A stretch of DNA of 42,681 nt, taken from a virus. A program made the translations under genes and the position numbers. The stretch spans positions 1 through 42,681 of IMG/VR virus record IMGVR_UViG_3300033571_020069. The stretch is one strand, 5' to 3'. Below the pieces are notes generated by a model. The model had not been told where the DNA came from, did not search any database, and saw nothing but the letters and a program-made list of their open reading frames with translations. Positions 120 through 42,463 of the stretch are shown here, in pieces; the first letter of the stretch is position 1, and every line of letters starts with the position of its first letter.

Positions 120-746
120 TTACTTTTCTGTTTCTACTGGGATATTATACATTGATTCTATGTAGTTTATAATATCATTTATTCTATCAGTTGAGCTTGA
201 ATTGGATGCCCATTTATCCTTATATTCTGCTTGAAAATCTTTAGGAAAATAACCAATTGTCGCATTAGGAAGAAATGTAAGTTTATTAATAAGGCTTTTA
301 GTAAGTATTATTTTTTTAATGTATGTTTTAATATTTTTTATACCGCCCTTTTCAATTTCAGGGCCATACCACAACTGTTCCATTTCATCTCCATACGAAT
401 CACTATAATTTTTATTATTTATGTCGGTGTCCTCTGGATTAAAAGCATCATTATATGGAATGCTTCGATATTTATCTGACATTCTATTTCCATCTAACAT
501 TATCGCAAAATCGTCTCCACCTATTTGTTGATTGGTTCCTAATCTTGATTTTGAAAAATTTTTATCGCGAGTTGTTGAAATGGATGCATTAAATCCTGTC
601 ATTTTACCTTGACTGAAATTTCGTGTTGACCATGCCGATTTTAATAAATTACTATCTAATATTTTAAATATGCTCAATATGGCTGTAAAATGATATACAT
701 CTCCAACTTGTTTTCGCTCTTTCAATAATTTAGTAAGTTTTATCAT
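120..746 (-). CDS. YHFT-motif protein, possibly ADP-ribosyltransferase-like, with capsid-targeting-like N-terminus
   Basis: 208 aa. The N-terminus (MIKLTKLLKE, residues 1-10) resembles the basic helix ending in L/I-x-E found on several other proteins in this window. Right after it comes QVGDVYHFT and then a SIFKILDSNLLKS-like stretch, STTRDKNF and a Glu-rich segment near EMEQLWYG. That order (H-x-T, then N/S-x-L-x-x-I-L, then a late Glu) recalls DarT-like and other small ADP-ribosyltransferases, but I cannot confirm the fold. T4 Alt is a precedent for an ADP-ribosyltransferase packaged in the capsid. The ATG overlaps the stop of the upstream lipoprotein gene by one base. No signal peptide is seen. 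Family assignment is inference. Confidence 0.5.
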   Translation of the reverse strand: MIKLTKLLKERKQVGDVYHFTAILSIFKILDSNLLKSAWSTRNFSQGKMTGFNASISTTRDKNFSKSRLGTNQQIGGDDFAIMLDGNRMSDKYRSIPYNDAFNPEDTDINNKNYSDSYGDEMEQLWYGPEIEKGGIKNIKTYIKKIILTKSLINKLTFLPNATIGYFPKDFQAEYKDKWASNSSSTDRINDIINYIESMYNIPVETEK

Positions 747-3522: not shown

Positions 3523-6500
3523 TTATTGTGTGATCTTAACAGTAAACAACGACTCATCTGAAAGTGAACTCATAATCGGCTTTGATACTTTACCTATTGC
3601 TAATAATTCCCTCTCTGCATTATATAATCCTACTGATGTAAAGTATGCTTTATTCTGTCGCAAAAATGGAGTTGATATATCACCATTTGAACCTGTTACA
3701 TATGTTGGATTATTTGAGTAATTTAATTGTGAATTTTTCAATGTAATGAAATATCTTGATGCATGTTTTAAATCTATTCCCCTCGCATAAAATCCTAATG
3801 CATCACCCGATGAATCAGTTAAATTTCTATCTAATACTAATTTCATCGAATGAAATAATCTATATGCATTATATCCATTTCTATCAATTGATCTATTTGT
3901 CGCAAATCCAAATTCATCTAATTTTCTACCTGATAAAACAATTATACCTGCACTCGGATATACTACACCAAATGCGTCAGATCTAATTGCAAATAATAAA
4001 TTACCATTAGGCAATTCTGTATAACTTCCTGTACTAGTCGGTTCATTACCATTAGAATCTGCAATATCTAATAATTCTGAAGTATCTAATAAAGCGTCAT
4101 TCAACCAAGAATCTACTCCTAAATAACCATAAGCAGATCCGGTAAGTGCACTTGTTACTATTTGTTGACCTTGTGATGCAGTTACATGAAAATATTCACA
4201 ATCCGGACAATCCCAAATAGGTGGTTTTCCATTTTTACCAAACCCCCATTTTAAAAATCCTGTATAAATTATACTTCCTGTTGTGTATTGAACTGGTGTC
4301 GAAAAAAATGTATCAATGGTTAATTTACCATTACCTAATGGATCATTTATATTTACTGTATTCCAAGTTCCTCGTATGCTTCCAGATATGTTATTCGGTG
4401 TAAATGCGATTGGGCCTGCTGAACCTGTAAAACTTGCTGTATAATATCCTGTATATCCAATTGAATATTGATTTAAATCTTGATAATATGTTTGACTTGT
4501 TTTTTCTAAAGTAAATGAACCAGTAACATTTGTAAATACAAATGGTATCATCTCTGCTCCTGTCACTATTGCAGTGTTGCTTGTTGTAGTTGTACTATTA
4601 ACAACATGTGTTACATCGCCTCTACTTATACTTGCTGATGCAGCGCTTGATGTTACATAGGTAGTTCTGATACCATCTTCTATTGTTCCAATTACTACAT
4701 TATAATTTTTAGAAGTTAAATATACAGCTCCTTGTCTTTGTTCTGTTTTAGTAATTTCATCAACTAATGTAATAATATTATTTCCATAAGTCGCACTCAT
4801 CATTTCTGAAAGTGAACTATTTGAACCTGTTTGCAATGTAAAACTTGCTGATGCTATTGTCAATTGCCAATTTCCAGGGTCTAATGCTTGTTTAAATCTA
4901 TCTCTATTAATATCAATTATATACACATAATCTTCATCGCCACTCCCAAAATTAAATTTTTCTTGACCATGAGGTAAAAGTATATGTGCGTATTGAGTGT
5001 ACATTGCTTTAGTTAATGTCTGATTATCTAAACCACCCAAATCTGTTGCGCCTTTTCCTTCATAATCAGCATAAATTAATTTATATTGTAATTCAGCACT
5101 GCATGTAGGTGAGGTATCAGGTGACTTATCATACACTGGCAATATATAACTTACAGAACCTGAATCTGTTAAACTCGCTGTTGATGGCGTTGTTAAATAA
5201 GGAGTATTACCTGTCCACGCTCCGAATGAAGATATATCTAATGTTTTTAATGTATTTTTAACATCAATTGGATAATACACAATTGCAGAAACAGCAGGCT
5301 CATTTACAACAATCGGGTCTGGTGGTGGGGGGGGAGGAGGAGGATCTATATACCCACACTCTTTTGAATTATTCTGAATTTTTTCAATATATTTTCCACA
5401 ATTCCCATTATGATACTCACCATATAAATCTGAATTTATACAATACGTTCTAATCAATGAGCCTGCTTGTATGCAATTAGGATTAGGTGCAAATCCACAA
5501 AATACAGAATTTGTTTCAATCAATTGCTCATAAGTTCCGCAACTTCCGTTTGCATATATGGCCCATTTTTCAAATTTATTAGGGCTATTAGGATCCTGCG
5601 TGTTTTTACACTCATATCGTATAAATGTACCAGAAGACGGGCATGGATTAGGTAAATCACCTATCGGTTCACTGCATAAGCAAACACGATATTGCCATTC
5701 TATAGTTGTTGGATCAGGCTGACTTCTACATACGCAATATTTCCATCTCCAACACTCATGAATCATGAACAAGAATTGTTCCGGTTCAGGAACTGCGACT
5801 TGTGTCCATAAACCTGTTGGTACGTATCGAGTGGTCAATAATGTACCTTCTATAGGTTCAGGTATTGCATCACATGGCTCACCTGGATTACAACGTGGAT
5901 CATTTGGACATTTATCGCAATCTAATACACAGCCAGGTTTACAATCACCACCCCAACTATCAGGTAAATAACATGGATCACATTGTGGGTGATTTGGATT
6001 CTGCTGACAGAATGTTAATACAGGACTATTATCACCATTACAATTATGCGCAGCAAATGAGTCTACAAAATATGTGTGGTCACTATTTGAATCTAATGTT
6101 AAATCGTATACTATAGTTTCATCGTAAACGCCAGCATTTATAATTTCGAATGATTCAATTAATACAAGACCATTTTCTGTAAAAATATAATCACCTACTT
6201 CAAGTTGTTTTATTATGCCGCCTTCTTGAAGAATTATATCAAATGCTTTAAATGTAGTTTTTGATAATTCAAAATTTGCAGTTACCCAAACATTGTGAAT
6301 TGATTTGAAAACGTGATCTGGTGTTGCAAATGATTTTCCACCATTAAGTGATAATAGACCTCGTGTACCTACTATCGGTGTAATTTTATTTTTTACTTCG
6401 GATATTTCACCATTACTCGTTATTACAGAATCACCAATTTGAACATCACAAATATTTTTATATGTCCCATCAGACATTTTTACTTGTGTATCACCTACAA

Positions 6501-8046
6501 AACAACAAACATCCTCAATTGGTGTAGTCGCTACAGGACATACATTACAATTTGGTATAATAGGTCGCCCTTGTATATTTGCGCCAGTAATTTGTTGTGG
6601 CGACGTTATTTGCTGTTTAGTTATAATTCTAAAACAATTGCCTGGACTCATTGACATCACAATATTAGTCTGATATTCGGTTTGCGAATATCCCGTTATT
6701 GTTGTGTCAACATCAAAACATTTTTCTAATTGATACGTCCAAGAACCATTAGGTAATGTTGTAGGTGTTTGGCAATTAGCTTGACAATCAGTAAGTGAAC
6801 TATATTGACCTTGCCCTGATGTTGCTGCTACACATCCATTTACTGTGCAATTAAATCCTGATGGACCTGGTAATTGACAATTTGCGGCGCATTGTGCCGC
6901 TGTCGTATATTGTGGTTCGTATCCGGTATTTGGGTCATAAATTATTTGTTGACATTGTCCATTTACACAATTGTACCCAATTGATAATGCTGTACCTGAT
7001 ACGCCTGGACCTCCTTGCACTTGTTGTAAAGGGCAATTACACTGTGAATATTTTGGAACATTAGTTATATCAGCATATGGTTGTGATGGTTGTGCACCAT
7101 TAACTTGTTGTTTTGAATAAATTTTAAAACAACTATTACCAATTATAATTGATTGATTTAAATTAAATTCCTGCGTTGCCCAAACTCGTCCACTATTTGT
7201 TGGATCTGTACATTGTTGTACATCATATTCCCAATGTGTTTGAGTTGTAGTTATAGTTGGCGTATCTGTACAATTTGCACAACCACTAATTACACGTTCA
7301 GTATTTCTTATATCAACTGCACCCGCTGGTATATTATTTAATGCAACCTCAATAGGATATCCTGCAGTGTCAATTACTTCAAAACAAAGACCATCGACAC
7401 TTTTTACTGCATATCCTGGAAATAAATCTGTTGTTTGTCTATATGCATCAACTATAGCAGCTGAACTTGTTGCACCACATCTTCTTATTCTATATATGTA
7501 AACATTATTTGAAGAACCAGAAGACCCACCGCTTGGAGGAGGTGGGGGTGGGGGTAAATTACAATCACCGCAAGAATTGAATAATAATCCATTAGTTGTA
7601 TCTAAATCTCCTGGAGTTGTTTGCGTTCCTTCAGATGATAAAACTTCATAACACGTGCCATTTATTTTAACAGCTCCACCGACATATGCATTTAAATTTG
7701 CTACATTTTGACTTGTAGCTAAAATTTGAGCACCACCCACATTTCCACATGGGCGTACAAAATATTTGTAATATGTGTTTATTGTTGGATTTACAAATAT
7801 AGTTGGATTTGTACAAGTAATACAATCTGGAAATAGTAAACTGGCATCAGTAAATGGAGTCATGTCTAACGCACCAATGGGCGTATTTTGCTGAAACCCT
7901 TCATATGATACTACTGAATAGCAAATATTACCAATTTTTACAACCGTTTGCCCAGGTGCTAAATTTGATGACCCCAATTCATCTGTGTAAGCTTGAATTT
8001 GACCACCAGTAGTACAATTTTGTATATTATATACGTAAAATGCCAT
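3523..8046 (-). CDS. Giant Cys-rich virion/tail protein with internal Hint (mini-intein) domain
   Basis: 1507 aa. Residues 1-503 hold five modules of about 80 residues built as Tyr-x-Tyr...Cys...G-x-C-[YF]-x-[VI], each closed by a CxxC or CxC (Cys75/78, 159/162, 256/259, 336/338, 500/503). Two shorter C-x-N-G-C repeats lie near 357-425. Poly-Pro linkers lie near 164-171 and again in the second half. A full Hint domain occupies residues 515-668, followed by a Cys-rich stretch. The C-terminal half (from a VNEP near the second Pro run) is homologous to the 494-aa neighbour (Cys-x-AE, INR-x-R, LD-x-GN) and ends with the shared SNNPT...VGLYN module. The set-up suggests a surface-exposed fibre or adhesin assembled after protein splicing. 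The Hint part is directly visible; the adhesin role is inference. Confidence 0.85.
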   Translation of the reverse strand: MAFYVYNIQNCTTGGQIQAYTDELGSSNLAPGQTVVKIGNICYSVVSYEGFQQNTPIGALDMTPFTDASLLFPDCITCTNPTIFVNPTINTYYKYFVRPCGNVGGAQILATSQNVANLNAYVGGAVKINGTCYEVLSSEGTQTTPGDLDTTNGLLFNSCGDCNLPPPPPPPSGGSSGSSNNVYIYRIRRCGATSSAAIVDAYRQTTDLFPGYAVKSVDGLCFEVIDTAGYPIEVALNNIPAGAVDIRNTERVISGCANCTDTPTITTTQTHWEYDVQQCTDPTNSGRVWATQEFNLNQSIIIGNSCFKIYSKQQVNGAQPSQPYADITNVPKYSQCNCPLQQVQGGPGVSGTALSIGYNCVNGQCQQIIYDPNTGYEPQYTTAAQCAANCQLPGPSGFNCTVNGCVAATSGQGQYSSLTDCQANCQTPTTLPNGSWTYQLEKCFDVDTTITGYSQTEYQTNIVMSMSPGNCFRIITKQQITSPQQITGANIQGRPIIPNCNVCPVATTPIEDVCCFVGDTQVKMSDGTYKNICDVQIGDSVITSNGEISEVKNKITPIVGTRGLLSLNGGKSFATPDHVFKSIHNVWVTANFELSKTTFKAFDIILQEGGIIKQLEVGDYIFTENGLVLIESFEIINAGVYDETIVYDLTLDSNSDHTYFVDSFAAHNCNGDNSPVLTFCQQNPNHPQCDPCYLPDSWGGDCKPGCVLDCDKCPNDPRCNPGEPCDAIPEPIEGTLLTTRYVPTGLWTQVAVPEPEQFLFMIHECWRWKYCVCRSQPDPTTIEWQYRVCLCSEPIGDLPNPCPSSGTFIRYECKNTQDPNSPNKFEKWAIYANGSCGTYEQLIETNSVFCGFAPNPNCIQAGSLIRTYCINSDLYGEYHNGNCGKYIEKIQNNSKECGYIDPPPPPPPPDPIVVNEPAVSAIVYYPIDVKNTLKTLDISSFGAWTGNTPYLTTPSTASLTDSGSVSYILPVYDKSPDTSPTCSAELQYKLIYADYEGKGATDLGGLDNQTLTKAMYTQYAHILLPHGQEKFNFGSGDEDYVYIIDINRDRFKQALDPGNWQLTIASASFTLQTGSNSSLSEMMSATYGNNIITLVDEITKTEQRQGAVYLTSKNYNVVIGTIEDGIRTTYVTSSAASASISRGDVTHVVNSTTTTSNTAIVTGAEMIPFVFTNVTGSFTLEKTSQTYYQDLNQYSIGYTGYYTASFTGSAGPIAFTPNNISGSIRGTWNTVNINDPLGNGKLTIDTFFSTPVQYTTGSIIYTGFLKWGFGKNGKPPIWDCPDCEYFHVTASQGQQIVTSALTGSAYGYLGVDSWLNDALLDTSELLDIADSNGNEPTSTGSYTELPNGNLLFAIRSDAFGVVYPSAGIIVLSGRKLDEFGFATNRSIDRNGYNAYRLFHSMKLVLDRNLTDSSGDALGFYARGIDLKHASRYFITLKNSQLNYSNNPTYVTGSNGDISTPFLRQNKAYFTSVGLYNAERELLAIGKVSKPIMSSLSDESLFTVKITQ
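5327..5334. repeat. G8 homopolymer in poly-Pro codons of the 1507-aa gene
   Basis: Eight consecutive G on the plus strand (C on the coding strand) encode part of a poly-Pro linker. Such tracts are rare in this AT-rich sequence and could slip during replication, shifting the frame. Confidence 0.6.
6043..6504 (-). other. Hint domain / mini-intein (or BIL-type) inside the 1507-aa protein, residues 515-668
   Basis: 154 residues. It opens with Cys515 in CFVGDTQVKMSDG, followed by IGDSVIT (block A). Block B has TPDH (the T-x-x-H motif). Near the end are YDLTLDSNSDHTYFV (block F) and AAHN, followed at once by Cys669 (block G). All residues needed for class 1 splicing are present: first Cys, block B Thr and His, penultimate His, terminal Asn and a +1 Cys. 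No homing endonuclease insert fits in 154 residues. Splicing would join Cys514 to Cys669. The alternative is a BIL-type domain that mainly cleaves. Confidence 0.85.
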
Positions 8047-10256: not shown

Positions 10257-10472
10257 TTATTTTTTATATTTTTTAATTTCAGATTTTACAACCATTTCAA
10301 TCAAACGTTTCAGTTTTTTAACTTTATTAACATTTTCATTTTTTGCTTTATAATTTGAATCTACATAATCAAAAAATTCTTTTTTTTCTGCATCTGTTTT
10401 CAAATCAGCTGGAGAATTTATTTTAAATTTTTTTAACGCATCCTCAAAAAATTTTTTATATTTTTCATCCAT
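10257..10472 (-). CDS. Small Lys-rich protein at the head of the fibre cluster
   Basis: 71 aa, about one third Lys. It contains KKFKINSPADLKTDAEKKEFF and ends in a basic helix (KKLKRLIEMVVKSEIKKYKK). Similar small proteins sit next to the MGYLNNSS-type gene in related phages, as far as I recall, with no assigned function. It is the first gene of the cluster that runs to 1836, and the 55-bp gap upstream contains a TATTTAT element. A DNA-binding or assembly role would fit the charge but is not shown. Confidence 0.65.
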   Translation of the reverse strand: MDEKYKKFFEDALKKFKINSPADLKTDAEKKEFFDYVDSNYKAKNENVNKVKKLKRLIEMVVKSEIKKYKK

Positions 10473-17210: not shown

Positions 17211-17912
17211 TTATAGTAATTCTTTAGATAATTGAACAAACCAGCTCGGTATATTTTTTTCAATATACTTACCAATATCAGGGAATATTTTCTTGTAATA
17301 ATTTGTATTTAATAAATATAACATAATACTATCACAAGTACATTCTATTTGATTAGTTAATCCATAATCAGTTAATGAATACGTAATCGGTATATGTATT
17401 TTATCATCAAAAAAATGCGCTATTTCATGCAAAACATGAGATTTATCAAAAGTATCTCCTGCCCAGTCAATACTCATCTCGTCTTTACCACCAGAAGGTG
17501 AACTATATACACCATTTTTATTAAAATACGAATTAATTTTATACTTTTCTAAAAGGCGTATTAATTCTTCTTTACTTATAGAAGTTGGAGAGTAATTATA
17601 AAATTTAGAATAATCTATAGTTTTTTCTCTTAACCTTAATATTTTTTCGGCATATTTTTTATAATTTGAAAATGATTTAAAATCATTTAAATCTTTAATG
17701 TCGTCTAAATTCGCATTATTAATATAGTCTTCATCATTCCCTTCAATATAATCGTAATTATATTTAGTCTTTAATGTATTTATATATTTTTTTCGTTTAG
17801 AATCATTTTTTTCTAACCCATCAATAATATCAATATACATTTGTATTTCTTCATTATCTGAAGATTGAGTTACTTCATTTAAATATTGATATATGATTTT
17901 TTTTAGTTTCAT
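17211..17912 (-). CDS. HExxH zinc metallopeptidase-like protein with capsid-targeting-like N-terminus
   Basis: 233 aa. Residues 158-170 read SHVLHEIAHFFDD; His162, Glu163 and His166 form an HExxH zinc site. Twenty-three residues after it comes E190-C-T-C-D194, the ExxxD spacing of gluzincins, so the third ligand is visible. The first 13 residues (MKLKKIIYQYLNE) match the basic-helix plus L-x-E signature shared by other proteins here. No signal peptide is present. The gene is set between the gp6-like and DNRLRE genes in the baseplate block, where no protease is usual, so it looks like an insertion. Substrate unknown. Confidence 0.7.
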   Translation of the reverse strand: MKLKKIIYQYLNEVTQSSDNEEIQMYIDIIDGLEKNDSKRKKYINTLKTKYNYDYIEGNDEDYINNANLDDIKDLNDFKSFSNYKKYAEKILRLREKTIDYSKFYNYSPTSISKEELIRLLEKYKINSYFNKNGVYSSPSGGKDEMSIDWAGDTFDKSHVLHEIAHFFDDKIHIPITYSLTDYGLTNQIECTCDSIMLYLLNTNYYKKIFPDIGKYIEKNIPSWFVQLSKELL

Positions 17913-20288: not shown

Positions 20289-20795
20289 TTACCTATTCAT
20301 TTCTGACATATTATGTCTATTTGCAGAATTTTCCATTATCTGCAATTTTTTCCTAAAATCAGTATTTTGTAAGGTGTTTAAAACTTTTGAAACTGCATCA
20401 TTAGATCTTGTCAATTTTGGGTCATTCATATAATCCAAAACAGATTCAACATCTTCTGAATTTTCATTAAATGGTGTAACATCTTCAAAAATTGATGCAA
20501 TTGGAGACTTTGAATTTTTAAATAATTTTTGTTTTGGTTTCACTTCATAATCATCTTCAACTTCATTCAATATATCGTTTATTGAAAAATTCAACGATCG
20601 ACCATTTGTTGATGTTGGTTTTGTTGGTGAACTCTTTACCATTTTTGAGTTTTCTGCAAGCAATTGATTAACTTGATTAATTGAAGTTTGTAATTTTTTT
20701 ATTTCTTGCAACAATGGTTTTTGAGCATTTGAAACTTCACGTTCAATTAAAATTTTAATCAGTTTGCTGATTTGTATTAATTCATTTTTAGTCAT
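20289..20795 (-). CDS. Coiled-coil protein of the baseplate cluster
   Basis: 168 aa. Residues 1-50 are a strong helix (EIKKLQTSINQVNQLL), followed by a disordered Ser/Pro/Asn stretch and an acidic centre. The C-terminus is helical (VSKVLNTLQNTDFRKKLQI). No family recognised. Lying between the hub and gp25 genes, it is likely structural. It heads the cluster down to 17211 and carries a TACTTAT element 17 nt before its ATG. Confidence 0.6.
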   Translation of the reverse strand: MTKNELIQISKLIKILIEREVSNAQKPLLQEIKKLQTSINQVNQLLAENSKMVKSSPTKPTSTNGRSLNFSINDILNEVEDDYEVKPKQKLFKNSKSPIASIFEDVTPFNENSEDVESVLDYMNDPKLTRSNDAVSKVLNTLQNTDFRKKLQIMENSANRHNMSEMNR

Positions 20796-31373: not shown

Positions 31374-31645
31374 TCCTTTTCCTCTGTTATCAAAATAATA
31401 AGATCTTCAGAACCTTTTATTACTCTATGAAAACTATATTTTGGTATATAAATTTTCATACCATCACTTAATGAGATTGGCAATTCATCTTCACTTTGAA
31501 ATTTCCAACCACCTGCTTGAATTATTTCTACTAATCTATTTTGTTTATCACGATGCCATACTAATTCATCTGTCTCGACATCACATGATAACACGCGTTT
31601 AAAACTATTTTTTGTAATCTTTTCTTGTGTATATACCATTACCAA
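31370..31645 (-). CDS. Cupin-like protein
   Basis: 91 aa. The sequence VETDELVWHRDKQNRLVEII, GGWKFQSEDELPISLSDGM, IYIPKYSFHRVIKG follows a small cupin barrel with His pairs (WHRD and FHRV). Such proteins appear beside PhoH in many phages. Metal binding at the two His is expected, but the reaction is unknown. It is coupled to PhoH by a 4-bp overlap, and starts inside the 3' end of the 192-aa gene. Confidence 0.7.
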   Translation of the reverse strand: MVMVYTQEKITKNSFKRVLSCDVETDELVWHRDKQNRLVEIIQAGGWKFQSEDELPISLSDGMKIYIPKYSFHRVIKGSEDLIILITEEKE

Positions 31646-32217
31646 AAAGTATTCATATTGTTACCTAAACCTAAACTTTTTGCGTATCTTGGCAACCTAC
31701 ACGCCCAGTATCCAGCACTTGTTTTGTCTGTTTTTTGAGCGCACTTATGCCTATCTGCAAATGCTTTTCTGCGTTTTGAGTCTCTGAATTTTACTGCTAA
31801 CGACCCACCACCATCCTTTGCACCAAAGGATATTTTTCGTGTGTTTCCGCTTTTAGGATCTTTGACATATACATAAAACTTTTTTGACCCGCCTCGTTTT
31901 GGTTTATTTAACTCAACATCTTTACCGGCATATTCAGATTCAACTAATGGTAAATCTAATGGTACTTGTGAGCCGTTATAATCGGCAAATTTGCCTAAAT
32001 CTGTTTCTAATATGAAATGGTCGTTATTATTATAATAAAAGCCCGACAACCACAGTTGACGAGCTTCATTAATAACATCAAAAAATTTTTTGCTTCCGTG
32101 TCTAAAAACGTTATTGCTTATAGGAATTTCATTATCAATATGATATTTTAAATCTTCTGAAACAACTATTTTAGACTCATTAATATACTTTTCAAGTAAA
32201 CTTTTAAGCGTTACCAT
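31639..32217 (-). CDS. Conserved phage protein (RHKC..GYWxCRLPRY type) with capsid-targeting-like N-terminus
   Basis: 192 aa. The last ~85 residues (KRGGSKKFYVYVKDP, NTRKISFGAK, FADRHKCAQKTDKTSAGYW, CRLPRYAK) are a domain I recognise from many large phages, without known function; two Cys and His hint at a metal site. The N-terminus MVTLKSLLEKYINE matches the basic helix plus I-x-E signature of the other candidates, so this may be an internal virion protein. An AAGG site lies before the ATG. Confidence 0.75.
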   Translation of the reverse strand: MVTLKSLLEKYINESKIVVSEDLKYHIDNEIPISNNVFRHGSKKFFDVINEARQLWLSGFYYNNNDHFILETDLGKFADYNGSQVPLDLPLVESEYAGKDVELNKPKRGGSKKFYVYVKDPKSGNTRKISFGAKDGGGSLAVKFRDSKRRKAFADRHKCAQKTDKTSAGYWACRLPRYAKSLGLGNNMNTFW

Positions 32218-37223: not shown

Positions 37224-37496
37224 TTATTTTTTCCAAACATCTCGACTATTTTGCGTATAATATGTGCCTTTATAATTTGATATAACCGATTTAATTGCAC
37301 CCTTAATTGCAGATTGCAAATCTTTCAGTAATAAATTTTGTTCTTTTCCATCTTTTGTCGAAGATATTAAATCGGGATTATGTCTACTTGAAAAATATTT
37401 TAATACAATATCACGTGATAATCTGGTAAGTTCTGAATCATCCATAACTAATTTTTCAGTTATAGTATTTTCATTAATTAGTTTTTTAAGCTTCAT
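37224..37496 (-). CDS. Small protein with capsid-targeting-like N-terminus
   Basis: 90 aa. The first 14 residues (MKLKKLINENTITE) repeat the basic start and the I-x-E ending of the signature family. The remainder is helical and contains ELTRLSRDIVLKYFSSRH and LQSAIKGAIKSVISNYKG. No domain recognised. It lies after a large hairpin. Confidence 0.55.
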   Translation of the reverse strand: MKLKKLINENTITEKLVMDDSELTRLSRDIVLKYFSSRHNPDLISSTKDGKEQNLLLKDLQSAIKGAIKSVISNYKGTYYTQNSRDVWKK

Positions 37497-39011: not shown

Positions 39012-39380
39012 TTACAAACCTAATTCAGAATCTTTAGCTTTATTAGTTGTATTTCCTGTTGCAGCGCCTCTCCATACTTGTCGTATAAATTCTATATCTA
39101 TTCCTTTAGACGCCATAGAAAGTAATTCTTTTTTAATCACATCCAAAGATTTAGAACCGATAGATGTAGATGAATTCGCCATAACCGCAGCTCCATCTTC
39201 TTTAGCGGTATTAATCAATTTTTGCATTTGAGAACTTGAAGGTAAACTTCCTCTATCTGCAATCATTTTAATTTGCTTCAATAGAATTTCTGTTCTTTTA
39301 AATGATGCATCTTCTTTTATAAGTTCTCGCCTAACATACTCACGTATTAAAGTACGAAGTTTTTGTATTTTTTTATTCAT
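39012..39380 (-). CDS. Small protein with capsid-targeting-like N-terminus
   Basis: 122 aa. The first 23 residues are a basic amphipathic helix (RTLIREYVRRELIKE) ending in I-K-E. The rest is helical with a Gly/Ser-rich part (GSLPSSSQMQKLI, SSTSIGSKSLDVIK). No domain recognised. AAAAGG lies before the ATG. It is 18 bp after the 398-aa gene. Confidence 0.6.
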   Translation of the reverse strand: MNKKIQKLRTLIREYVRRELIKEDASFKRTEILLKQIKMIADRGSLPSSSQMQKLINTAKEDGAAVMANSSTSIGSKSLDVIKKELLSMASKGIDIEFIRQVWRGAATGNTTNKAKDSELGL

Positions 39381-39398
39381 TAGATATACCTTTTGAAA

Positions 39399-39737
39399 TT
39401 AGAATGCTGCCTGCATTTTATTGGAATGATCAGGATATTGTTGCTTAAATGTTTGCAATAACATTTTTACATATCCATCTCTCATTTTTATTAATTTTTC
39501 ACGTTCTTTATCATTCATACTCCAATTATCATTCAGTCTGTTTGTGATAGTTTGAAGTGTCTTTTGGGACGGGTCTTTCAATAATTTAGCCAACTCCACT
39601 GCCGCTTCACTATGTAAATTTCTATCTGTCAAAGTAGATATCTTTTTTATGACCTTGTCTAAATTAATTTCAACATTTTCGTTTAGTTGCTTACGAATTT
39701 GTGCTTTTACTATTTTAGTTAAATATCCGTTTCTCAT
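39399..39737 (-). CDS. Possible nested gene inside the ParB-like ORF
   Basis: ATG at 39735-39737 (residue 287 of the 398-aa frame) has AAAGGA 8-9 nt upstream, in a leader almost identical to that of the 41024 gene. It would give 112 aa with its own basic helix ending in L-N-E, then LHSEAAVELAKLL, similar to FHTEAKTLAAQL in the 207-aa protein. In-frame without a stop from upstream. Confidence 0.45.
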   Translation of the reverse strand: MRNGYLTKIVKAQIRKQLNENVEINLDKVIKKISTLTDRNLHSEAAVELAKLLKDPSQKTLQTITNRLNDNWSMNDKEREKLIKMRDGYVKMLLQTFKQQYPDHSNKMQAAF

Positions 39738-40595
39738 TTTTTTAGATTCCTTTACGTCTTCTGGTTTAGGGTTGATGAAGTTTACTATTCCCTTCTTTAA
39801 CAGGGAATCAAAATTAGGGGCATCTCCAGTCTGTGGCATAACATTTCTATCAGGAGCACCAGAAACAGGAGCGTTTTTAGTCTGCATCATTTTAACATTA
39901 TTCCAAATAAAATCGGCTATCGATTCAGGAGTATCACCTTTACCATTCTTTTTAAATATATCAATTGATTTCTGTTGTATATTTGAAGTGACTAAATCAA
40001 TTATTTGACTTTTAGTTGCAGTCAACATATTAATACCTGATGCATTAGATAAGGGCAACCCCCCAGTGTCAGCAGCGATGGCCATGTGTACTGCTTTAAG
40101 TGCATCCAATGGTTTAAGACTCCCATTAATATCCAAAACGTTAACACTAGAGTTTGGATTTACTGCATATATTTGCGACCATCTATGATGACCATCAATT
40201 ATATATTTTCCATTATAAGTAATAACAGGTGGGATATTAGGATTTCCTTTTAAAAAACTATCGAGGGTATTAAATCTATCACTCATTAAATTATTTAAAG
40301 ACGACCCTTGCTCAATGACATTTTGTGTAGGAATTAATTTAGATGCAGGTAACTTTTTTTGGGTCACATTCATCTTTTCATCGTCTTCATTCCCATCGGT
40401 CAATCCAGCACCAATAATTGCGTTTACCTTGGGGTCAGCCGCCATTGACTTAAACTTCGCAACAAATTGCGCAATAGGCATTTTAACGATTTTATTTATG
40501 TCCTCGGCGCTTGCCTCCATTATACGCCTTTGGCGTAAAAAATTTTGAACCTCTTCTCTAACCAATCTTTTTAAATATTGCATGTTGCCTTGCAT
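39399..40595 (-). CDS. ParB-like domain protein with two signature helices
   Basis: 398 aa. The N-terminal helix (LKRLVREEVQNFL, then QRRIME) fits the capsid-targeting-like signature. Residues about 85-180 hold a ParB/sulfiredoxin-like domain: SKLIPTQNVIEQG, YIIDGHHRWSQ (134-141) and GSLKPLDALKAVH. This fold binds or cuts DNA or transfers phosphate. From residue 287 the frame carries a second signature start (MRNGYLTKIVKAQIRKQLNE) with its own ribosome site. It may be a fusion of two former genes or give two products. AAAGGA precedes the first ATG. Confidence 0.75.
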   Translation of the reverse strand: MQGNMQYLKRLVREEVQNFLRQRRIMEASAEDINKIVKMPIAQFVAKFKSMAADPKVNAIIGAGLTDGNEDDEKMNVTQKKLPASKLIPTQNVIEQGSSLNNLMSDRFNTLDSFLKGNPNIPPVITYNGKYIIDGHHRWSQIYAVNPNSSVNVLDINGSLKPLDALKAVHMAIAADTGGLPLSNASGINMLTATKSQIIDLVTSNIQQKSIDIFKKNGKGDTPESIADFIWNNVKMMQTKNAPVSGAPDRNVMPQTGDAPNFDSLLKKGIVNFINPKPEDVKESKKMRNGYLTKIVKAQIRKQLNENVEINLDKVIKKISTLTDRNLHSEAAVELAKLLKDPSQKTLQTITNRLNDNWSMNDKEREKLIKMRDGYVKMLLQTFKQQYPDHSNKMQAAF

Positions 40596-40613
40596 TATAA
40601 AATCCTTTTATAA

Positions 40614-40620
40614 ATAAATA
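40614..40620 (-). promoter_or_regulatory. Candidate late promoter core (TATTTAT) for the 40595-38794 unit
   Basis: Minus strand reads TTGATATTTATTTATAAAAGG in part; two overlapping cores, the better 18 nt before the ATG. It lies in the 150-bp gap. Confidence 0.5.
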
Positions 40621-40642
40621 TCAAAATAGGATTGAAATTGCC

Positions 40643-40686
40643 CTATAAAGATAAAGAGTAATACTCGGACTTCCAAATATTACTCT
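40643..40686 (-). terminator. Hairpin with T-rich tail after the 92-aa gene
   Basis: AGAGTAATATTTGGA and TCCGAGTATTACTCT pair (with a few G-U) around a tiny loop, followed by a T-rich tail on the minus strand. It sits about 60 bp past the 92-aa gene stop, just before the candidate promoter. Confidence 0.6.
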
Positions 40687-40745
40687 CTTTTTTATATCAA
40701 TAAATTTTTAACAATTAAAATACTTTTTTCATGTCCTTATATTGC

Positions 40746-41024
40746 TTATTTATTGCCCAATCCATCAACAACTGCAAAATATGAATCATGTAATCTATCA
40801 ACATTGTTCATTAGTGTATAAATTTTTTTGTCTATTGCAGGATTAAGTCTCTTTTGAGTATTTAGATAATTCCGTAACATCTTTATTTCACTTGAAATTG
40901 TATCAATTGAATTTTTAACATTGGTATTGAATTCAGTAAGTTGGTCGCCAAATTGATCTTCTGTGATTTGACGCTTTACTTCTTCCTTAATCAATTTTTT
41001 CAATAGTTGTGTTTTTGTGTTCAT
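40746..41024 (-). CDS. Small protein with capsid-targeting-like N-terminus
   Basis: 92 aa. The first 22 residues have LLKKLIKEEVKRQITE (ends I-T-E), then a helical body (NTNVKNSIDTISSEIKMLRN, NNVDRLHDSYFAVVDGLG). No known domain. AAAAAGGAAATC precedes the ATG, the leader shared by the family. Confidence 0.6.
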   Translation of the reverse strand: MNTKTQLLKKLIKEEVKRQITEDQFGDQLTEFNTNVKNSIDTISSEIKMLRNYLNTQKRLNPAIDKKIYTLMNNVDRLHDSYFAVVDGLGNK

Positions 41025-41051
41025 TTTTAGATTTCCTTTTTAAAATATATG

Positions 41052-41675
41052 TTATACAATATTGAGACTTTTAATCGCATTGGCTAATTTATGCGAACCA
41101 TCCATTTGCAGTGTAAAAATAATAGCACTTGCTATTAACGCACCGCTCCATTCAGCCTTTGCAGCAATATCAGTACCTAAATCATAGGCAATACTATCGG
41201 CGTCTGCTATATCACCATTTTCATATTCAGGGCTGTTATTCAATTGAGCAGCTAATGTTTTTGCCTCGGTATGAAAATTCGCATCCACTAAAGCAGCATA
41301 AGCAACTTGCGCCATTTTTAATTGATAATCACTCCCCAATTTTTCAGGTGTGAACCCCTTTCTCTTTATTAAGGTTCGAACCTCTTTATTTAGTTGTGGG
41401 TCTCCGATATTGTTTTCTTTTAAAGATGTGTTAGCTTCATTTAAATTCAAAGTATTTTGTGCATTTGATAATCCATCTAAAATTGAATTTATTAGTATTA
41501 TAGCTACTTCTACGTTTCTTTCCTTTACTGCTCGTTCCAATTTACTCACATGGCTCTTTAAGAATTTTACTACAGCATTATCAACTGCAGCCCAGTTCAA
41601 TTCTTCTTTTAAAGCTATTTGGCGCTTGATTTCTTCATTAATCATTCTTTTTAGAAGTTGCACTTTTGGATTCAT
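41052..41675 (-). CDS. Helical protein with capsid-targeting-like N-terminus
   Basis: 207 aa. The N-terminus QLLKRMINEEIKRQIALKE (ending L-K-E) is followed by a helical body. FHTEAKTLAAQL resembles the end of the 398-aa protein. The C-terminus has AEWSGALIASAIIFTLQMDG, a hydrophobic stretch that could touch membranes. No domain recognised. AAAAGGAAAATA precedes the ATG. Confidence 0.6.
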   Translation of the reverse strand: MNPKVQLLKRMINEEIKRQIALKEELNWAAVDNAVVKFLKSHVSKLERAVKERNVEVAIILINSILDGLSNAQNTLNLNEANTSLKENNIGDPQLNKEVRTLIKRKGFTPEKLGSDYQLKMAQVAYAALVDANFHTEAKTLAAQLNNSPEYENGDIADADSIAYDLGTDIAAKAEWSGALIASAIIFTLQMDGSHKLANAIKSLNIV

Positions 41676-41722
41676 TTTTATATTTTCCTTTTAAAGTTTA
41701 AAATATTGTTTTATGCGTTTGA

Positions 41723-42028
41723 TTAAAATCTTGATGATTGTCTACCACCCATAGGATCGGTATAATCATTCAAGTAACGTATCATTTCCTTTTCAGTATC
41801 AAATATGTCTTTATCCGAAGGGTTTTTTGTATTAATCATATATATGCGACCTCCACGATGTTCGACTCTATATTCTCCACCTTTATCACCTTTTTTAATA
41901 ATAGTGCCATCAGCTGATATTGAAGGCCCAGAAAAGGTTATTTCATAATTGCTTTGCAGATGTTGAAATGATTGAGCTTCCAATAAAGCTCTTTTTACTT
42001 CTTCTTTTATCAGTTGCTTTAGATTCAT
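41723..42028 (-). CDS. Possible nested gene inside the 246-aa ORF
   Basis: ATG at 42026-42028 with AAAGGA upstream (6 nt away). It gives 101 aa with the signature ending L-L-E and the beta-rich domain. The strong ribosome site suggests real internal initiation. Confidence 0.5.
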   Translation of the reverse strand: MNLKQLIKEEVKRALLEAQSFQHLQSNYEITFSGPSISADGTIIKKGDKGGEYRVEHRGGRIYMINTKNPSDKDIFDTEKEMIRYLNDYTDPMGGRQSSRF

Positions 42029-42463
42029 GTTTTTCCTTTGATTCTGATTAATATTAGATTCACCTAATGTATCATATTTACGCTTTAAAGTCTGTTTTGC
42101 AAATAACTTCTTTAGATATTTAGTTTCATCCCATATAGTCTTTATATTTTCTTGATTCATCATTCTGCTAATTTGCGCATCTGTGATTTTACCTATCTTA
42201 CCTAATTCTTCTTTATAATGCTTAAAGAGTACTGGAGGCAATTTTTCCGAACCATACCTTTTTTGCTCCATCTCTTTGGACGCATTTTGCTTGGCAGTTT
42301 TCAATTTATCCACTATATCAGAATGCAACGTTACTTTATTTTTATCGTCTTCGGTAGATTCTCTATCTAAATACGCATCGGCAAAATCCTTTCCCATCAT
42401 ATTTAGATACTTGTTATACTTGTCTTGAACTTCTTTTGAATATTTTGATAAATCTGGATTCAT
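41723..42463 (-). CDS. Protein with internal second signature helix
   Basis: 246 aa. The first 145 residues are charged and helical (DKVTL-like start, NASKEMEQKRYGSEKLP, FAKQTLKRKYDTLGESN). From residue 146 a new signature begins (MNLKQLIKEEVKRALLE) followed by a beta-rich end (YEITFSGPSISADGTIIKKG). The frame continues without a stop between, as in the 398-aa ORF. It could be a fusion, or two products from two starts. No domain recognised. Confidence 0.6.
   Translation of the reverse strand: MNPDLSKYSKEVQDKYNKYLNMMGKDFADAYLDRESTEDDKNKVTLHSDIVDKLKTAKQNASKEMEQKRYGSEKLPPVLFKHYKEELGKIGKITDAQISRMMNQENIKTIWDETKYLKKLFAKQTLKRKYDTLGESNINQNQRKNMNLKQLIKEEVKRALLEAQSFQHLQSNYEITFSGPSISADGTIIKKGDKGGEYRVEHRGGRIYMINTKNPSDKDIFDTEKEMIRYLNDYTDPMGGRQSSRF

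Follow-up and report, generated by a model that had tools for sequence, protein, structure and literature searches.

Candidate capsid-targeting leaders shared by neighbouring genes in an IMG/VR virus fragment

The internal proteins of phage T4 have only a packaging leader in common, which the protease gp21 cuts behind L/I-x-E (PMC9026906, PMC3012670, PMC12373910). Once injected, Ip1, Ip2 and Ip3 act against Type IV restriction enzymes, each disabling a different one (PMC12373910). gp21 has a catalytic triad that has been aligned to His, Ser and Asp of SPN3US gp245, and in T4 gp23 the border of the 65-residue propeptide lies between E65 and A66 (PMC5694885). Polyvalent-type ParB and ART domains have previously been linked to injected phage proteins (PMC5512222). 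Here we analyse a 42.7-kb virus fragment from IMG/VR (IMGVR_UViG_3300033571_020069; 42,681 nucleotides, 30% GC), called the window below, whose coordinates are used throughout. Five of its genes, at 39-42.5 kb, share a leader, and sequence comparison makes it probable (roughly 0.7) that these leaders are capsid-targeting propeptides in the style of T4, of a different sequence.

A leader of the type LLKxLIxEEVKRxI opens four adjacent minus-strand genes (39012-41675), followed by IKE, IME, ITE and LKE. The first gene, 39012..39380 (-), encodes 122 residues, with the leader at residues 1-23 (39380-39312; MNKKIQKLRTLIREYVRRELIKE before D) and a body to which no function is assigned. The second, 39399..40595 (-), encodes 398 residues, with the leader at residues 1-27 (40595-40515; MQGNMQYLKRLVREEVQNFLRQRRIME before A), a ParB/sulfiredoxin-like body and a helical domain at about residues 309-398. 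The third, 40746..41024 (-), encodes 92 residues, of which 1-22 (41024-40959; MNTKTQLLKKLIKEEVKRQITE before D) are leader and the rest a small body, again with no assigned function. The fourth, 41052..41675 (-), encodes 207 residues, with the leader at residues 1-24 (41675-41604; MNPKVQLLKRMINEEIKRQIALKE before E); its single-sequence model is all-helical and of low confidence (predicted local distance difference test score, pLDDT, 45), and was discarded as unusable. All four reading frames and leaders are as the original prediction quoted them.

The fifth gene, 41723..42463 (-), is built differently. Its product of 246 residues begins with 145 leaderless residues, fused in frame to a tag (41978..42028 (-), residues 146-162; MNLKQLIKEEVKRALLE before A) and a C-terminal body, and the codon usage is that of coding sequence in both parts. 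The tag is preceded by AAAGGAAAAAC-ATG, an AAAGGA box and ATG that resemble real gene starts, and it is possible that translation also begins here. A second internal tag, at 39678..39737 (-) (residues 287-306 of gene 2; MRNGYLTKIVKAQIRKQLNE), likewise has an AAAGGA box upstream and stands at the border of the two bodies. It is doubtful, and was downgraded because 36 of 1000 shuffles match it and because the orthologues in records L066 and L067 have a native C-terminal tail at this place. Both sites had been predicted as gene starts (LNE at 39737, ALLE at 42028); in the longest frame they are internal, at residues 287 and 146.

The bodies are mutually unrelated, as had been proposed, with best non-self blastp E-values of about 0.02-0.07. 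No relatives were found in IMG/VR for the bodies at 39012, 41052 and 41723, or for that of a weaker candidate at 746 described below, and none among named phages for the first three.

The original prediction argued from about ten starts with a short basic, often amphipathic helix ending in [L/I]-x-E. This argument did not survive comparison with chance. In the window the bare motif occurs in 18 of 57 N-termini and in 93 of 392 internal segments (p = 0.25), and its N-terminal frequency of 32% is matched (32.1%) in two 30%-GC control phages of Bacteroidota, Flavobacterium phage 11b and Cellulophaga phi14:2, an outcome akin to one that the prediction had named as speaking against it. For these controls a gp21-type protease is not known and S77 was not searched; 11b has an annotated prohead protease from a different COG (COG3740). 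Counts of the bare motif were rejected as evidence on account of this equal rate, and amphipathicity was dropped because hydrophobic moments are no higher than those of shuffles. Both results favour the explanation that an AT-rich genome yields look-alike N-termini rich in K, L, I and E.

We nevertheless consider chance very unlikely, because the leaders taken whole behave differently from the motif. Each tag was held out and scored by a hidden Markov model (HMM) of the others, against 1000 shuffles of itself and against 1648 other N-termini. Five of the six tags, those of 39380, 40595, 41024, 41675 and 42463 (internal), scored above all 1000 shuffles of their own composition, so that the HMM bears out these leaders; the last four also outrank all 1648 other N-termini. 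Three pairs of window leaders score at least 42 by BLOSUM62, as against none for random internal segments. Under a stricter rule, in which a leader-like N-terminus is net basic and has no P or G ahead of the motif, the proportion is 10.5% in the window and 8.7% in the window and its relatives, compared to 3.6% in the AT-rich controls (p = 0.023, pooled, and approximate as the genomes are related); T7, lambda and N4 together have 2 of 158. A tblastn search with a single window tag gave no phage match. The exact 8-mer LIKEEVKR has 11 matches in viral contigs; most lie within proteins or in noncoding sequence, and a single one is clearly N-terminal (L171, MKKSELLKLIKEEVKSINES). The case rests on comparison with relatives.

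The window carries genes for gp6-like and gp25-like baseplate proteins, PhoH and an endolysin. Through the gp6-like protein, its closest annotated relatives are Microcystis phage Mel-JY01 (47.5%) and Flavobacterium phage immuto (40%), with a further 65 IMG/VR loci.

The ParB-like protein of gene 2 has orthologues in seven other records (Mel-JY01, L066, L067, L069, L070, L071 and L072). Their bodies align and their leaders are unrelated, and all have an early [L/I]-x-E (LLKE, FINE, LLE, YLYE, RILE) just ahead of the body. The motif DGHHRWSQIY is invariant in seven aligned sequences, and the structure model of the window protein matches a ParB/Sulfiredoxin fold in BFVD (E = 1.1e-9); the label ParB-like, given earlier, is right by sequence. 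Pfam ParBc_2 stays below its cut-off (E = 0.019, 15.5 bits against 23.6), and profile and fold searches gave no match in the PDB. The longest-reaching orthologues stop near window residues 282-298, from which it follows that a C-terminal domain has been added in the window gene. In the model this is a separate folded unit (residues 309-398), and the second and third ranked BFVD matches are free-standing viral proteins of 84-96 residues, roughly its size. The domain does not match the product of the next gene in Mel-JY01 (E = 0.24).

In L066, a row of genes for terminase, portal, S77 protease, core protein and capsid, in this order, begins two genes downstream of the ParB-like gene. The core protein (L066 7447-8412) has an internal MKLKSILNNINE at the place where its Mel-JY01 counterpart has the N-terminal MYQKIVQEVVREVIAE, and an AAAGGA-like box stands ahead of the internal ATG, as at 42028. 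Leader replacement and internal leaders thus occur in an undoubted head-gene cluster too.

The S77 (gp21) family, PF03420, is present in 9 of 25 records, namely both complete relatives (gp070 in immuto) and seven others; many of the relatives' contigs are fragments, so that its absence from these is uninformative. H85, S140 and D168 of T4 gp21, which we take to be its catalytic residues, are conserved in an alignment of three relatives. The cut site of the capsid protein is conserved as well: E65-A66 of T4 gp23 aligns with ISE-A in two relatives and VSE-A in immuto, the E-A pair being invariant in T4 and all three.

A scan was conducted within each genome, comparing the first 30 or so residues between all genes whose bodies are unrelated. 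As a positive control it recovered the T4 ipII/ipIII pair; T7 and N4 gave no shared-leader pairs, and lambda one spurious pair, at a looser threshold only. Shared leaders ending in [L/I]-x-E were found in immuto and in contigs G003, G004, G006, G007, G010 and G012. The immuto leader FDLKKFLVENKLT...LLxE opens four genes, of which two immediately precede terminase; outside immuto isolates it is found in no phage of a 50,697-record collection. The leader carriers of immuto include gp003, gp076, gp077, gp083 and gp092. Others are MKDSRKLLxTIAxGYLxE on three genes of G003, MKTHKLKVTLNEIKRMQxLAGI on three adjacent genes of G004, MKLKxIYExIIxE on four genes of G006, and MNKKKLxEMIxKILxE in G007 and G012. 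In G003, a leader is found on an ART-PolyVal protein (E = 2.8e-14). L114:1909-3006, in contig G003, appears to be another fused-cassette protein, with the leader MTKLKILLEQVLKE, a short YHLTT piece, an internal leader-like KQLIREILKE and ART-PolyVal.

A second immuto leader, MKKQILSEQFxRMQxLAGIITE, is carried by two genes with 20 of 22 residues identical, and their codon identity is 9 against 8.9 expected; with codons at chance and the peptide kept, selection appears to act on the peptide. This bears on the explanation that the leaders are remnants of a DNA-level cassette, an element of recombination or duplication sitting where genes begin, rather than functional peptides. Leader DNA does get copied, as shown by codon agreement above expectation in G004 (43 vs 26.8) and G003 (24 vs 16.8). 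In the window, however, codons agree at 41 of 98 identical tag positions vs 48 expected, which indicates that the tags are not recent DNA copies and that the conserved entity is the peptide; as in the immuto pair, synonymous sites are randomised. We therefore hold the cassette explanation to be highly improbable.

A widespread leader contains KRMQELAGI; no mention of RMQELAGI was found in paper texts. Of its 29 occurrences in stretches of viral contigs, 26 fall among the first 30 residues; the bodies joined to it belong to 17 unrelated families, and in 15 of the 26 N-terminal cases [LIV]-x-E follows. All three contigs longer than 170 kb that contain it encode S77. In L179, L191 and L192 the sequence is internal (residues ~95-110) and then followed by [LIV]-x-E, as though a longer precursor had another leader built into it. 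A different N-terminal family, MKLDKRIK...GYF, is found in L145-L146 (contig G018), from an S77-encoding phage.

On the basis of the S77 protease, the capsid cut site, the leader-swapped orthologues and the other leader families, all supplied by relatives, capsid targeting explains the cluster at 39-42.5 kb best, and to this extent the proposed T4-like propeptides stand; the wider list of about ten starts, being at chance level, does not. The basic, predicted-helical leader would bind the internal scaffold core during prohead formation and so bring the protein inside. Cleavage behind [L/I]-x-E by the S77 (gp21-type) protease of the phage would follow, the leader would be lost, and the body, left in the head alongside the DNA, would be injected. 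For the window phage we infer the S77 protease, core binding, cleavage, packaging, injection and any role in counter-defence.

Besides the bare-motif counts, several observations weigh against this reading. Terminase, portal, protease and major capsid protein are all missing from the scanned window proteins, which have no S77 match either, so that the gp21-like protease expected by the original prediction was found in relatives and not in the window. No papers on virion proteomics of immuto or Mel-JY01 were found. Shared N-termini that lack [L/I]-x-E exist, on 17 genes of G018 and in clusters of Mel-JY01, and 11 of the 26 proteins with N-terminal KRMQELAGI lack [LIV]-x-E within 8 residues. A helix of the type LIKEAVKEAV, the best background match of the HMM, opens a baseplate-adjacent family (window 20289-20795; immuto gp114), so that head cargo is not alone in having this helix. 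The last two observations fit an alternative in which the leader is an uncleaved, general docking or assembly helix that anchors accessory proteins to the virion or to a replication partner and has [L/I]-x-E by composition, as helices rich in K, E and L often do. This would not explain why the motif stands at the border of leader and body in 8 of 8 ParB-like orthologues despite replaced leaders, nor why, in most multi-copy leader clusters, almost every member has it, and we consider a docking helix unlikely.

Four weaker candidates lie outside the cluster, all on the minus strand. The gene at 17211..17912 (-) has the leader MKLKKIIYQYLNE before V and adjoins the gp6-like baseplate gene; its body contains HEIAH, and so by sequence is HExxH as predicted. 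The gene at 120..746 (-) has the leader MIKLTKLLKE and a VYHFT body; leaders resembling it, MxKLKxLLxE, precede VWHLT/VYHLT bodies in Mel-JY01 and G003, and its reading as a possible ADP-ribosyltransferase found no direct confirmation. The gene at 31639..32217 (-), beside PhoH, joins the leader MVTLKSLLEKYINE, which its orthologues do not keep, to a PHROG 7595 body. The gene at 37224..37496 (-) joins MKLKKLINENTITE to a small body for which no relatives were found. Their leaders are of another type (MKLK...), each within chance, and those of 746 and 17912 resemble leader types of relatives. As the tests gave chance levels, it is likeness to the relatives' MKLK-type leaders that speaks for these four, and a chance origin is viable for them.

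Three further observations concern the tail and baseplate region. The family at 20289-20795 (-), also found in L030-L062, evolves fast and lies beside gp25/gp6-like genes; its opening helix is tag-like, for example LRRVIREEVRAAVKEILTE. The gene at 10257-10472 (-), amid tail genes, encodes 71 residues, the first part of which resembles the C-terminal end of the L066 head-core protein (44% over 43 residues), and its C-terminus, KKLKRLIEMVVKSEIKK, is tag-like. The 1507-residue tail-region protein encoded at 3523-8046 (-) contains a Hint/Hom_end-like segment at about residues 515-582 (CFVGDTQVKMSDGTYKNICDVQIGDSV), possibly an intein or Hint domain by sequence, which matches PF05203 below cut-off (E = 4.4e-5).

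More broadly, we tentatively suggest that phages related to T4, in Bacteroidota and cyanobacteria, mark cargo with N-terminal packaging addresses that are diverse, recombine and can be exchanged for one another; the prohead core of each phage would read them, and its own S77 would remove them. Some addresses might be private (LLKxLIxEEVKR here, FDLKKFLVENKLT in immuto) and others widespread (KRMQELAGI, in at least 17 body families), and fused cargo genes may give one precursor that releases several injected proteins. Effectors could then be identifiable from the leader alone. Leader families peculiar to this lineage, if they exist, would help to pick out, among phage genes that cannot otherwise be annotated, proteins that are likely delivered by the virion and may act against host defences, and the T4 rule of leader, [L/I]-x-E and S77 protease would become testable beyond the T-even phages.

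The closest described system is the capsid targeting sequence (CTS) of the T4 proteins IPI-III and Alt, cut by gp21, where, as in the window, a short N-terminal leader ending in [L/I]-x-E is carried by unrelated proteins; relatives of the window phage have a gp21-family S77 and the same capsid cut site. The window leader (22-27 residues, LLKxLIxEEVKRxI) lacks similarity to MKTYQEFIAEA, its relatives have several leader families, internal leaders occur in fused genes, and its cargo is putative. In phage P1, an N-terminal peptide likewise directs a large defence-related protein, DarB, into the head, but the Dar proteins have no consensus N-terminus (PMC9024508), in contrast to the shared window leader with a protease motif at its end. 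In phiKZ and SPN3US, a gp21-like protease removes head propeptides after x-x-E, and the N-termini of SPN3US gp53 and gp54 are identical (PMC5694885); several of these propeptides exceed 100 residues, however, and cutting takes place at A-x-E or S-x-E. The ParB-like body of the window and the ART-PolyVal body of G003 recall the polyvalent proteins that have ART or DdrB-like ParB domains, but those are giant multidomain polypeptides, whereas the window and G003 proteins are small and have cleavable-looking leaders. As far as the genes indicate, the window system would thus resemble that of T4 in its mode of packaging, cleavage and injection, with a leader that is not T4's.

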